Below the pieces are notes generated by a model. The model saw nothing but the letters and a program-made list of their open reading frames with translations. It was not told where the DNA came from and ran no database searches. A program made the position numbers and the translations under genes. From Chitinophaga lutea (GTDB lineage: Bacteria; Bacteroidota; Bacteroidia; Chitinophagales; Chitinophagaceae), in assembly GCF_003813775.1 (NCBI RefSeq), contig NZ_RPDH01000003.1, positions 186,001-250,000 of the forward strand: a stretch of DNA of 64,000 nt. The letters are read 5' to 3'. Below are positions 9,896 to 14,094 of the stretch, piece by piece (within the stretch, counting starts at the first letter, position 1; each line of letters opens with the position of its first letter).

Positions 9896-9926
9896 TTTGA
9901 ATAATCTGACGGGCGTTCTATATTTG
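9896..9926 (+). promoter_or_regulatory. Consensus Bacteroidota promoter for the TonB/DUF4374 operon
   Basis: TTTG (9896-9899), exactly 19 bases, then TATATTTG (9919-9926) is a full match to the TTTG-N19-TANNTTTG consensus. The start codon at 9940 lies so close that the 5' leader would be about seven bases or less. Confidence 0.7.
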
Positions 9927-9940
9927 CAACATCGTTGCAA
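9924..9940. promoter_or_regulatory. Perfect palindrome overlapping the -7 box, Fur/Zur-like operator
   Basis: TTGCAAC (9924-9930), spacer ATC, GTTGCAA (9934-9940). This 7-3-7 perfect inverted repeat overlaps the end of the -7 element, the expected transcription start and the first base of the start codon, an ideal place for a repressor. Size and base content resemble boxes of Fur-family metalloregulators; the identity of the regulator is inference. Confidence 0.6.
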
Positions 9941-10287
9941 TGAAAATGGCGCCCGTCAGCACATATCGTTCCTGGTTAGCCGCGCTGTTATTGGCGCTGT
10001 ACGGGTTTATAGTCCTGCCGGTGCAGGTATGGCATCATCATGCCGGCACCAGTTGTCATACTGAAAAATCCTCTTCGCAGCTGCCGGCGTATGCGGGTGA
10101 AAGCGGGACGTTCTCCGGTTCCTGCAAAATTTGTGACCATCAGTATTCTTTCTATTACAATGATCAGCAGGTTTCCTTTGTATTCGTACGCAGGGCGCTG
10201 GCTGTCGTTTTTTCGTTTCATCGCCCAGGGCCGGTAACCGCTTCTTATTTCCATTCCTCCAACAAAGGCCCGCCGGCGGTGGATTAA
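9940..10287 (+). CDS. Small Cys/His-rich membrane-anchored protein
   Basis: A 115-residue protein with one N-terminal hydrophobic helix (WLAALLLALYGFIVLPVQV) followed by the pattern WHHHAGTSCH and, about 25 residues on, CKICDHQYSFYYND. Paired His/Cys clusters suggest metal binding on the periplasmic side. It is the first gene after a consensus promoter and palindrome and precedes a TonB receptor by about 150 bases, so a role in handling or sensing the imported metal is plausible. ATG 9946 is an alternative start. I recognise the type (small proteins upstream of metal-related TonB receptors) but no named family. Confidence 0.6.
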   Translation: MKMAPVSTYRSWLAALLLALYGFIVLPVQVWHHHAGTSCHTEKSSSQLPAYAGESGTFSGSCKICDHQYSFYYNDQQVSFVFVRRALAVVFSFHRPGPVTASYFHSSNKGPPAVD

Positions 10288-10439
10288 TTTCTTCTCTTAT
10301 ATCCGCGGCAGCTGCTGCGGGAACCGATATATTTTATCAGGCATGAACGCGTGTGAAGGCTGTGCCCCTGCGGGCGTACTGTTCCTATACCGGTACGTGG
10401 CATTCATGTAACTATCCAACTTTTACAACTTGAAACAGA

Positions 10440-12809
10440 ATGACGAAAAGGCTGCTTTTTGTGCTGCTGTGCTGCGTCGTTTCCCATTGCGCATTCGCCC
10501 AGGGGAACGTTATCCGTGGCAGGGTGCTCGATCAACAACGCTTTACCCCGCTCGGGCAGGTAACGGTGCACATCCGCGAATCGGGCGTTTCCACGCAAAC
10601 AGGGGCGAACGGCGTATTTGAATTCAAAAAAATAAATACCGGTACATACACTTTGCAGTTTTCTTTTGTGGGTTACCGGCCTGTCGAGCGAACCGTGCGG
10701 GTGGATAAAACCGGCCTTTCGGTAGAGGTCGCGATGGAGGCGGTCAGCACCGAGCTCTCCGGCGTAACGGTGACGGGCCTGAGCGAGGAACAGGCCGCTG
10801 CGCGTAAGGTCCGCAACAATGTGATGCCGGTTACCATCCTGTCTGGCCGGCAGATCGAGAACCGTGCCAGCAACCTCAACGAACTGCTTGCCCGGCAAAC
10901 GGGAGTACAAATCCGCAGAACCGGCGGGTTGGGCAGCGAGGCCAGAATTTCCGTACGGGGCCTGGAAGGCAGAAGGGTACAGATCTTCATCGACGGCAAC
11001 CCTCTTAATACCCCGGACGGCAGCCTCGGCATCAACGACCTGCCACTCCAGATCATCGAACGCATCGAGATCTACAAAGGAACGATTCCCGCCTGGCTGG
11101 GAGGAGACGGGCTGGGCAGTGCGGTGAACGTGGTCATCAAACACCGTGATGTCAGTTACATCGACGCAACGGCATCGTACCAGTCGTACAACACCCTTAA
11201 CACCGGCCTCATCCTTAAAAAAACATTCGACAAAGCGGGCATCGAAGCCGGGGCGGGCATCTTCACCAACAGCAGCGACAACGATTATACGATGGAATCT
11301 CCTTTTCAGCCGGGGCTGAAGATCCGCCGGGATCATGACCGCTTCCGTTCCATCCTGGCCGGCGCTTCCATTCGCTTTCACAAACTGTGGTTCGATGAGG
11401 TGGAACTGGAAGGCGCTTATGTGGACGTCGACAAAGAATTACAGGGCGTGCAGCGGAATATCCGGCACATCGAAAGCCATGGTAAAACAGGCGTGGCGAT
11501 TCTGTCGGCCAAAAAGAAGGGCCTGCTGGATAACAGACTGTCGTTTAAGTACAATGCCGCGTTGGCGAACATCAACGTGAGGTTTGTCGATACTTCGTCG
11601 TACAGCTACGACTGGGAAGGTATTCGTTCTCCGAGCATTTACGGGAAAGGGGAGATGGGCATCGGTCCCAACCTGACGACTACCGTGCAGAAGGAGTTCC
11701 GGCAGCTGGCCAATGTCAATTTCGAGCTCAACGAGGTGTTTACGCTGAACCTGAACAATACGCTCCGAAAAGGCGATTTTGAGCCGGAAGATGATGTGGC
11801 CAATGCGTTTGCCGGGAAAAACCTGTTCAATCATCCCGGTAAATTATTCAATACCATCACGGGCCTGACCCTGGAAAGCCGGTTGTTGCAGGAGCGACTA
11901 TTGCTCTCGGCCGCGGTGAAACATTATTACAGCGAGGTACAGGGTTATAACACCAATATCTACCTGCATGCGCCGCCGGACCGGGTGCGCAATATCACCA
12001 ACACCGCAGGTTATAACGCCGGCATGCGATACAGTTTTACGCCGGAGTGGATGGTGAAAGCGAGTTATGAAAGAGCGGTGCGCCTGCCGCTGAATGCGGA
12101 ACTTTTCGGTGACGGTGCGCTGATCACGCCTGCCATTTCACTGCAGCCGGAAAGAGCGAACAATTACACGGCAGGTGTCATTTTCGACAAAACCAACGGG
12201 GCCGGCAACCGCCTGCAGCTCGACGCCAATGCATTCTACATGCGGGTGAACGATATGATACAGCTGGCCGGCACCGGCGGCTTGACGACGGGTTACGTGA
12301 ATTACGCGAATGTGGACATATTGGGGGTGGATGCGGAAGCGAAACTGGATGTGACGAAACACGTATACGTCAGCGCTAACGTCACCTGGCAGCGGCTCCG
12401 GGACATTTCGCAATATCTGCCCGGTACCGATAAAGTGGATAATCCCACGTACCTGCTGCAAATCCCCAACGTGCCGGAGCTGTTCGGTAACTGGAATGTG
12501 GAATTTCATAAAACCGGCCTTCTCGCCAGGGGCGCGAAAACGCGGCTTATTTACGAAGGGAGCTTTACGAACGAATACAGTTACGGTTTTAACATCAGCC
12601 GGTACGACCAGTTTTTTATCCCTGCCTATGTGGCGCATAACCTCGTGATAGAGCAGTCGTTTCACGACGAACGATATACCATCACAGGAGAAGTGCACAA
12701 CATCACCAACGAAAATATCCTCAACAACTGGAACATGCCGCTTCCCGGCAGAACGTTCCGCATCAAACTGCGGTACCTGCTGATCGGTAAAGCCGGTCAC
12801 GGGCATTAA
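10440..12809 (+). CDS. TonB-dependent receptor (metal/siderophore type, not SusC)
   Basis: Outer-membrane active transporter of 789 residues. Signal peptide (MTKRLLFVLLCCVVSHCAFA), carboxypeptidase-regulatory-like domain (about 23-105, IRGRVLDQQRFTPLGQVTV), plug domain (about 125-230 with the VRGLEGRRVQIFIDGNPL and IEIYKGTIPAWLGGDGLG motifs) and a 22-strand-type barrel with a TonB-receptor C-terminus (EVHNITNENILNNW then PGRTFRIKL). It lacks the SusC-specific length and the SusD neighbour. The next gene, 21 bases on, is a DUF4374 lipoprotein, a pairing reminiscent of the Bacteroides xenosiderophore systems. The ligand is unknown. Confidence 0.88.
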   Translation: MTKRLLFVLLCCVVSHCAFAQGNVIRGRVLDQQRFTPLGQVTVHIRESGVSTQTGANGVFEFKKINTGTYTLQFSFVGYRPVERTVRVDKTGLSVEVAMEAVSTELSGVTVTGLSEEQAAARKVRNNVMPVTILSGRQIENRASNLNELLARQTGVQIRRTGGLGSEARISVRGLEGRRVQIFIDGNPLNTPDGSLGINDLPLQIIERIEIYKGTIPAWLGGDGLGSAVNVVIKHRDVSYIDATASYQSYNTLNTGLILKKTFDKAGIEAGAGIFTNSSDNDYTMESPFQPGLKIRRDHDRFRSILAGASIRFHKLWFDEVELEGAYVDVDKELQGVQRNIRHIESHGKTGVAILSAKKKGLLDNRLSFKYNAALANINVRFVDTSSYSYDWEGIRSPSIYGKGEMGIGPNLTTTVQKEFRQLANVNFELNEVFTLNLNNTLRKGDFEPEDDVANAFAGKNLFNHPGKLFNTITGLTLESRLLQERLLLSAAVKHYYSEVQGYNTNIYLHAPPDRVRNITNTAGYNAGMRYSFTPEWMVKASYERAVRLPLNAELFGDGALITPAISLQPERANNYTAGVIFDKTNGAGNRLQLDANAFYMRVNDMIQLAGTGGLTTGYVNYANVDILGVDAEAKLDVTKHVYVSANVTWQRLRDISQYLPGTDKVDNPTYLLQIPNVPELFGNWNVEFHKTGLLARGAKTRLIYEGSFTNEYSYGFNISRYDQFFIPAYVAHNLVIEQSFHDERYTITGEVHNITNENILNNWNMPLPGRTFRIKLRYLLIGKAGHGH

Positions 12810-12830
12810 AAACCTAAACATTACACCGAC

Positions 12831-14018
12831 ATGAAATATTTTTTGATTCCGATAGTTGCCATCTGCCTGCTCTGCGCCTGCACAAAACGAAGGGCGGACG
12901 CCGGCGGCCGTACAGCCGGGTACGACCATATCGCCATGGTCACCAACATCAACACGGGCACCACACCGGTAGCATACCTGGGTACCCGCAGCGATTTTTC
13001 CAAAGGCACTTACAACAACGCCAATGCCCGGCAGGTGGTGAGTTATGCGCTGGCGCAGGTGTACGGCAACGATGTTTATCTTATCGAAGCGCGCAGCGGC
13101 GACAAGGTGAAAAAGTATACCCGCAATATGGACGGTACGCTGCAGGAAGCAGGTAGTCTGGTCATGCCGGCCGCATCGTTCCCTTATTGCATCGCGTTCG
13201 AAAGCGCCGTAAAAGCATACGTGTCTTTAGGCAACACCGGGAAGATCGCCGTGATCAATCCCGCTACCATGACGCAAACCGGCCTGATCGACCTCACCCC
13301 TTACGCACTGGGAGATGCAAGCCCCGACCCGGGCGTGATGGTATACAAAAACGGCAGACTGTACGTAGCCTGCCTGCAAACCTCAGACGGTTATACCAGC
13401 ATGCATCCGGCACAGGTGCTGGTAATCGATGTGGCTGGTAACTACGGCATTACCAGCATCACCGACAACAGGGCCACTTATGCCGGCAACGCTTCGTCTT
13501 CAGGTTCGATGTTCTTTACGGAGAACGGCGATCTGTATGTGTTGTGCATGAGCTCATGGGGATTCGTACCGGGGCAGAAATGCGGCTTCCTGCGTATCAA
13601 AAACGGAGACACAAAATTCGACCCGGCGTACTTTTTCAACATCAGCGATTATGTGGTGGCCAACATACCGGGTAGCCACCTCGATTATCTTCACCGTGTC
13701 GAATATGCCGGCAACGGCATTGTGTATGCCACGGGGAATATCCCGAAGCTGATGAGCAATCCCCCGGATTATGTGAAGGACAAGACCTTCGGCGCATTCC
13801 GGGCGGACCTGCAAAACAAGGTGCTGACGAAGCTGGATATCCCTTATTCAAATGGATACGCGGCCTGTGTGTTGCCGTATGAGAACAAGGTGTATTACGG
13901 GATGTCGACCAACACCGGGGTGGGCATCTTTTCTTTTGACCCGGCTACGAATACAACGAGCGTGGGACCGGTGGTGAGCGCGCAGGGGGATCCGAGTATC
14001 CTGTGTGCATTTGAGTGA
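12831..14018 (+). CDS. DUF4374 beta-propeller-like lipoprotein, partner of the TonB receptor
   Basis: 395-residue lipoprotein: MKYFLIPIVAICLLCAC gives a clear lipobox (LCAC). The body is a run of repeated beta segments (AYVSLGNTGKIAVINPATM, RLYVACLQTS, DLYVLCMSSWG, KVYYGMSTNTGVGIFSFDP) consistent with a propeller fold and with the DUF4374 family. From memory, the surface lipoprotein XusB of the Bacteroides xenosiderophore system carries such a domain, so capture of a metal complex for the receptor upstream is a reasonable guess. No PepSY inner-membrane reductase gene follows, unlike that system as I recall it. An imperfect terminator follows at 14058-14094. Confidence 0.75.
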   Translation: MKYFLIPIVAICLLCACTKRRADAGGRTAGYDHIAMVTNINTGTTPVAYLGTRSDFSKGTYNNANARQVVSYALAQVYGNDVYLIEARSGDKVKKYTRNMDGTLQEAGSLVMPAASFPYCIAFESAVKAYVSLGNTGKIAVINPATMTQTGLIDLTPYALGDASPDPGVMVYKNGRLYVACLQTSDGYTSMHPAQVLVIDVAGNYGITSITDNRATYAGNASSSGSMFFTENGDLYVLCMSSWGFVPGQKCGFLRIKNGDTKFDPAYFFNISDYVVANIPGSHLDYLHRVEYAGNGIVYATGNIPKLMSNPPDYVKDKTFGAFRADLQNKVLTKLDIPYSNGYAACVLPYENKVYYGMSTNTGVGIFSFDPATNTTSVGPVVSAQGDPSILCAFE

Positions 14019-14057
14019 CTTTTTTAACGTAAAAACAAATATTGCCGGCAGAATTTT

Positions 14058-14094
14058 CCCGGTGGCGCCGGGGAGGATATTGTTCGCCACCGGG
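14058..14094 (+). terminator. Stem-loop after the DUF4374 gene
   Basis: CCCGGTGGC (14058-14066) pairs perfectly with GCCACCGGG (14086-14094) across a 19-base loop. An outer GCCGGC pair flanks it. There is no clear T-tract, so termination is only probable. Confidence 0.45.

Follow-up and report, generated by a model that had tools for sequence, protein, structure and literature searches.

We propose that positions 9896-14018 of the analysed DNA, a window of 64,000 nucleotides from a contig of Chitinophaga lutea, form a zinc-uptake operon with two gates in series: an operator of the Zur type and, behind it, a leader that resembles CruR. Judged from sequence comparison, we assign this reading a probability of roughly 0.6. 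The operon consists of three genes that follow a palindrome on one strand and encode proteins of 115, 789 and 395 residues. Its features are given below.

9896..9899, + strand: TTTG, predicted -33 element of a Bacteroidota-type promoter, read in the sequence 19 bases before TATATTTG
9919..9926, + strand: TATATTTG, predicted -7 element, read in the sequence; the operator overlaps it
9924..9940, + strand: operator palindrome TTGCAACATCGTTGCAA, TTGCAAC-ATC-GTTGCAA, predicted Zur-type site, from the sequence and its conservation in the family and before homologous genes
9940..10287, + strand: leader of 115 residues, predicted CruR-like zinc-sensing arrest peptide; alternative start ATG at 9946
10033..10041, + strand: codons of His32-His34 (WHHH motif), conserved in the leader-family alignment
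10123..10134, + strand: codons of Cys62-x-x-Cys65, predicted metal-sensing motif, conserved in the leader-family alignment
10264..10275, + strand: codons of Lys109-Gly-Pro-Pro112, predicted arrest motif with three more residues behind it, at a fixed spacing from CxxC
10288..10439, + strand: leader-receptor gap of 152 nucleotides (nt), predicted site of conditional transcription termination by inference from CruR
10440..12809, + strand: TonB-dependent receptor, XusA-like, 789 residues (Pfam Plug and barrel)
12831..14018, + strand: lipoprotein, XusB-like β-propeller, 395 residues, with Cys17 as the predicted lipidation site
14054..14076, + strand: terminator-like hairpin past the operon, a weak candidate, as the region holds 7 such sites compared to 5.6 in shuffles

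The initial annotation described a promoter of the form TTTG-N19-TATATTTG and an overlapping palindrome that ends in the start codon, and this description is correct to the base: the start codon is the ATG at 9940-9942, the A of which is the last base of the palindrome at 9924-9940. A second in-frame ATG is located at 9946, where the closest relative of the leader, P0002, starts. The exact palindrome occurs a single time in the 6.6 Mb genome. When the window was shuffled 100 times, 28 of the shuffled sequences contained at least one match at up to two mismatches, so the palindrome alone is weak evidence. Its significance rests on its conservation in related genomes, a check that had been proposed beforehand: of 147 family genomes, 38 contain the exact sequence, at 40 sites in all, and the reversed control gave none. 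This comparison of sequences identifies the palindrome as the conserved operator of a metal regulon.

We compared 39 exact-site loci outside the window (L063 and 38 others). A homologue of the C. lutea Fur-family protein lies within 5 kb in 31 of them and a MerC-like gene in 29, with at least one of the two in 34. The operator usually sits between MerC and SCO, and the Fur-family gene follows SCO; this arrangement suggests autoregulation. Leader-type genes carry the operator at up to two mismatches within -150 to +20 in 11 of 15 places (12 at three mismatches), while the background at up to two mismatches is 0.10% of 6,816 windows. At 10 of the 12 leader-gene sites with up to three mismatches, a TAnnTTTG box shares its TTTG with the operator.

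The C. lutea genome contains 29 sites at up to two mismatches (reversed control: 16), eight of which, the exact site of the window included, are found at plausible loci and six in a dispersed repeat; the other 15 resemble chance matches, 10 of them inside predicted open reading frames (ORFs). At locus L016, tandem sites with one mismatch precede the gene of an AztD-like lipoprotein of 399 residues, and a third site (two mismatches) precedes a 110-residue His protein and a receptor. The remaining loci have sites with two mismatches: a pair of them at a cluster of MerC, ATP-binding cassette (ABC), SCO and Fur genes that also holds a ZigA-like GTPase (L018), one before a paralogue of the 115-residue protein with genes for an ABC ATPase and a receptor behind it (L023), and one before a thioredoxin-reductase-like gene (L025). 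The Fur-family protein encoded in the L018 cluster is the only one detected in this genome at E ≤ 0.001. As in a Zur regulon, the locus of the regulator itself carries operator sites of this type.

The thioredoxin-reductase-like gene deserves a separate remark, since a flavin adenine dinucleotide (FAD) enzyme of this kind recurs behind the operator (L025:5872-6786, L138:4052-4969, L139:4050-4955 and L072:2121-3035); at L138 and L139 exact sites precede genes with an N-terminus similar to that of L025. It is also present in the Flavobacterium run L202. The assignment is based on a family scan for L025 and L202 and on N-terminal resemblance for the others. The six operator-like sites of the repeat, in which TTGCAACAYRATTGCA is followed by GGTATCTACGCTTCATCT, were discarded (copies at L017:6758, L019:5524, L020:4941, L021:5477, L024:5373 and L028:4625).

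Because the sites stand at an AztD-like chaperone and at the Fur cluster with its ZigA-like GTPase, the regulon is probably a zinc regulon of the Zur type. The L016 lipoprotein resembles AztD (NF038015, E = 8e-34, 116.9 bits, below the cut-off of 400; solved AztD 6ck1, E = 7.6e-29), and the L018 GTPase resembles ZigA (E = 1.3e-163, 544.5 bits, below the cut-off of 600). The best solved relatives of the Fur-family protein are E. coli Zur (4mtd, E = 3.3e-7) and FurB (2o03, E = 6.2e-7). In a Cytophagales genome (L207), close relatives of the receptor and lipoprotein are found in one run with the operator, MerC, a ZigA-like GTPase and Fur, and in Flavobacterium (L202) relatives of the pair lie beside genes for a ZigA-like GTPase, a QueD-type protein and an LCIB-type carbonic anhydrase. 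The operator is common to these zinc-related genes, namely to the AztD-like and ZigA-like loci and to L207 and L202, with the AztD and ZigA models of C. lutea below their cut-offs. The initial annotation had considered metal uptake of a kind other than xenosiderophore import; this can be kept and narrowed, as the operator shared by the AztD-like and ZigA-like loci makes zinc probable rather than iron.

Other operons extend the picture. Four sister operons (L059, L060, L065 and L071) join a leader-type gene, an ABC ATPase and a receptor to two more large membrane-protein-like genes, whose counterparts at L072 are DUF3526 ABC-2 permeases. At L249, a Bacteroidota protein just above the DUF2946 cut-off (VHHH, CSLC, SRAPP, spacing 45) heads a ZigA gene that exceeds its own cut-off (608.2 vs. 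600); this stretch, L249:29-1824, is a second candidate for a zinc-type CruR. The ABC cluster of the regulator had also been considered as DUF3299/Zrg-like, which was rejected because the resemblance is weak (E = 0.009).

The SCO gene, a member of a copper-chaperone family, adjoins the regulator gene and is present in 29 of the 39 exact-site loci, and therefore a copper system has to be weighed, in which the leader would be a true copper CruR and the regulator would govern copper genes. Both CruR and CutF are copper sensors. On the other side, the neighbours at these loci are ZigA-like, AztD-like and zinc-enzyme-paralogue genes, neither of the two conserved motifs reported for DUF2946 is WHHH, and we know of no Fur-family copper sensors. 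We regard a copper system as distinctly improbable.

The second gate of the proposed zinc operon would be the 115-residue protein. As the initial annotation had noted, it carries HHH/C/H and CxxC clusters behind one helix: residues 7-25 are predicted to be helical, and the clusters comprise the histidines 32-34, Cys62, Cys65 and His67. Relatives occur in 12 of the 147 family genomes, C. lutea included, and 21 were listed by a profile search of a protein collection. In 31 aligned rows His32, His34, Cys62 and Pro112 are invariant, and Cys65, His67 and His33 are kept in 30, 27 and 26 rows, respectively. The CxxC and a C-terminal K/R-x-P/S-P motif are both present in 30 rows, the last one, P0009, having neither motif intact. 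This C-terminal motif is mostly NKGPP, not RAPP (GSP in two rows), and the tail behind it measures 2-6 residues in 29 of 30 rows and 23 in one. The two motifs are separated by 43 residues in 26 rows, 44 in two and 45 in two (n = 30). The linker between HxH and CxxC varies in length from 13 to 37, and residues 7-42 of the spacer have a mean identity of 14% among the 26 rows of equal length. A constant length with a free sequence would be expected of a ruler that extends from the ribosome to the sensing motif.

In eight of the 15 places a receptor gene comes directly after the leader-type gene; in five an ABC ATPase gene lies between the two, and in one the next gene encodes a ZigA-like GTPase. 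Among 543 small ORFs of the loci, the CruR-type signature selected 17 (16 distinct), and 12 of the 17 have an operator at up to two mismatches within 160 nt. The set takes in L171, whose product gave no BLAST match to the leader references, and an ORF without operator, L067:5481-5849. Locus L210 contributes a further member: at L210:451-841, an operator with two mismatches and a CruR-signature ORF are located 2.6 kb 5' of the Xus-like pair of that locus.

The initial annotation took the 115-residue protein for a new accessory protein. It is better explained as a metal-sensing leader of the CruR/CutF type, because of the fixed CxxC-KGPP spacing, the C-terminal arrest-type motif and the position of its gene before the receptor gene; by analogy with CruR, we lean slightly towards this function. 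Alternatively, the protein could act in trans as a periplasmic metal chaperone anchored in the membrane. This would agree with one predicted helix and conserved His and Cys residues, and is in our view unlikely: no confident structure was obtained outside the helix, and the sequence is free except for the fixed spacing and the C-terminal motif. Moreover, CutF, which was first conjectured to be a chaperone, must sit immediately upstream of its target according to the sections consulted of PMC9973294. The protein is thus probably not a metal carrier. AlphaFold2 yielded no usable model of it beyond the helix (mean predicted local distance difference test score 56.7), and therefore we claim no metal site.

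The predicted RNA fold of the 152-nt gap is unremarkable (z = -0.17), and Rfam gave no hit at E ≤ 1, so a CutF-type stem-loop is unsupported. Behind leader-type genes, C outnumbers G in 10 of 12 gaps; this count, uncorrected for background composition, is compatible with Rho.

The receptor and the lipoprotein are relatives of XusA and XusB, and their resemblance to xenosiderophore systems, already pointed out in the initial annotation, is borne out. Among solved structures, the receptor comes closest to that of the XusAB complex (9gbc_A, E = 4.6e-68, aligned over residues 7-780). For the lipoprotein, a XusB-like fold is predicted by VIA-align and Foldseek, which were applied to this protein only. 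It gave no Pfam match at E ≤ 1 in hmmscan; the identical protein P0022 bears the precomputed database label PF14298 (DUF4374), and in alignment A3 PF14298 was matched by three of five members, the window lipoprotein not among these three. The pair is accordingly an XusA-like receptor beside a DUF4374 propeller lipoprotein. No PepSY reductase gene follows directly 3', as had been stated; the next gene is an aldo/keto reductase. On the 5' side lies a GH30 hydrolase gene, itself preceded by genes that we judged by eye to be SusC/SusD-like.

This kinship supports a rival reading, in which the operon is a Xus-type xenosiderophore system for iron that lacks its PepSY gene and the sole Fur-family protein detected in C. 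lutea is an iron-sensing Fur. The Xus authors consider DUF4374 proteins likely to be genuine xenosiderophore systems (PMC13142918, sections consulted). An iron-stimulon study, PMC10434189, names DUF4374 three times. Against iron stands the distribution of the operator, which is present at four of 12 PepSY-free pairs, in all four members of the window branch, and at none of 19 PepSY-linked DUF4374 pairs. The four operator-bearing pairs form one branch with a support of 100/100, and none of the 12 loci of the close clade gave a BLAST match to four PepSY references. ZigA-, AztD- and QueD-like genes at operator loci and beside clade members argue in the same direction. Four of the ferrichrome contacts of BfXusB could be mapped: L93 and W235 are lost, 18 of 26 rows have Tyr at Y77, and Y52 is not kept in the alignment, with a Tyr one column away; F398 is outside the aligned stretch. 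This comparison of contacts is a weak argument, because the contact residues differ completely among proven XusB proteins (PMC13142918, sections consulted). We therefore consider the iron reading quite unlikely. On the basis of the aligned proteins and their gene neighbourhoods, the window pair belongs to a clade of its own within the Xus family, one with the operator and no PepSY.

Cys181 and Cys239 of the lipoprotein were rejected as a pocket pair, as three of the four aligned members of the operator clade lack Cys181; Cys239 alone is clade-specific (0 of 25 Xus rows). A lipoprotein relative (37%) without adjacent receptor or operator is encoded in a genome of the same genus (L174:4790-5884). 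In Prevotella and relatives (L216, L218, L219, L220, L228, L232, L234-L237), near-identical starts of regulator-like and receptor genes across differently named genera suggest that a distant Xus-like pair, which has no operator, was transferred recently. The pair or its lipoprotein also has relatives in records labelled Campylobacterales/Epsilonproteobacteria, Gammaproteobacteria and Handelsmanbacteria (L213, L214, L226, L231), the last of which adjoins CobW-like genes.

Several observations weigh against the zinc operon with two gates, in addition to the SCO genes and the opinion of the Xus authors. The best NCBIfam match of the Fur-family protein is Zur, but at 37.2 bits compared to a cut-off of 167 bits, and the L207 Fur-family protein is matched best by PerR. 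No site at up to three mismatches was found by the leader-type gene at L061, L066 and L068 (chosen start), although the clusters of L061 and L066 do include a Fur gene; at L068 no metal gene follows. Close orthologous operons at L172 and L173 have the operator and no leader. Within the close clade, the receptor is without operator in three of 12 loci (L205, L210, L212), L202/L203 have it only at three mismatches, and at L072 it lies 2.2 kb before the receptor. Finally, the leader departs from CruR in its arrest motif and family: Pfam scans of 16 and of 20 members gave no DUF2946 match at E ≤ 1, none of 40 leader relatives matches DUF2946, and hhalign aligned the leader profile with five Bacteroidota DUF2946 proteins over 18 columns around CxxC (probability 23.8). 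Membership of the leader in DUF2946 was rejected for these reasons. UniRef applies the name DUF2946 domain-containing to one relative, P0011, and DUF2946 is present in six of 247 genomes of the phylum.

If the two gates exist, they would work as follows. A zinc-loaded repressor of the Zur type would bind the palindrome, cover the -7 box and the start site and thereby repress the operon. When zinc is scarce, the operon would be transcribed, the ribosome would arrest on KGPP and transcription would run on into the receptor gene. Zinc bound to the HHH/CxxC residues of the nascent chain would relieve the arrest, whereupon transcription would stop in the 152-nt gap. At the cell surface, the lipoprotein may capture zinc, either as such or in a complex, and hand it to the receptor. 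In its broadest and more doubtful form, the hypothesis describes the first zinc-sensing arrest-peptide leader, a Bacteroidota family (WHHH, CxxCxH, a fixed 43 residues, NKGPP) which, together with a new Bacteroidota Zur box, doubly gates zinc receptors, including a Xus branch that would have shifted from iron piracy to zinc piracy. If true, a zinc operator is now at hand for a phylum that goes unmentioned in the Zur reviews PMC6103462 and PMC8000910, not all DUF4374/XusB lipoproteins are siderophore binders, and a protein-based zinc sensor works during translation.

Known Zur regulons (PMC6103462, PMC8000910) share with the present one a palindromic operator at the promoter, a Fur-family regulator, a COG0523/ZigA-type GTPase and TonB receptors, but the operator here is TTGCAAC-N3-GTTGCAA. 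Neither review contains a word beginning with Bacteroid-. We found no Bacteroidota Zur box among the papers listed by literature searches or in the portions consulted of PMC11960050, PMC9976891, PMC6613475 and PMC12574912, and a query with the half-site letters returned nothing relevant by title among the matches listed. In Caulobacter, a Zur-repressed znuK receptor and the znuGHI ABC-2 transporter are described (PMC4176598, sections consulted), and the four sister operons likewise join a receptor with ABC transporter-type genes. As in XusABC of Bacteroides (PMC13142918), an XusA-like receptor adjoins an XusB-like propeller lipoprotein; unlike it, the window operon has no PepSY XusC, belongs to its own branch and carries a zinc-type regulon operator.

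CutF-like proteins in Bacteroidota are already mapped (PMC9973294, here and below in the sections consulted). They are small, with a signal, a C-terminal PP and a metal motif, as is the window leader; 40% (normalised) come from Bacteroidota, often before TonB-like genes. Copper is proposed as their metal, with nickel/cobalt for His-only groups and zinc unmentioned, whereas the window leader is predicted to sense zinc.

The closest parallel in design is CruR, the copper-sensing arrest-peptide leader, of family DUF2946, of the TonB-receptor operon bp2923-bfrG-bp2921 (PMC9426467, as far as consulted). It has a CXXC and, 45 residues further, RAPP three residues from the end, and its gene lies 162 bp from the receptor gene; changes of RA or PP abolish receptor expression, and changes of CxxC remove most of the copper control. 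According to its authors, neither copper nor zinc has a riboswitch on record. The window leader is also short and predicted to be exported, has a CxxC and an x-x-Pro-Pro three residues from the end at a similar fixed spacing, and is the first gene before a TonB receptor, with a gap of 152 vs. 162 nt. It differs in having KGPP instead of RAPP, the additional WHHH and CxxCxH, and no DUF2946 profile match. It also stands in a presumed Zur-type regulon, and its metal is predicted to be zinc rather than copper.
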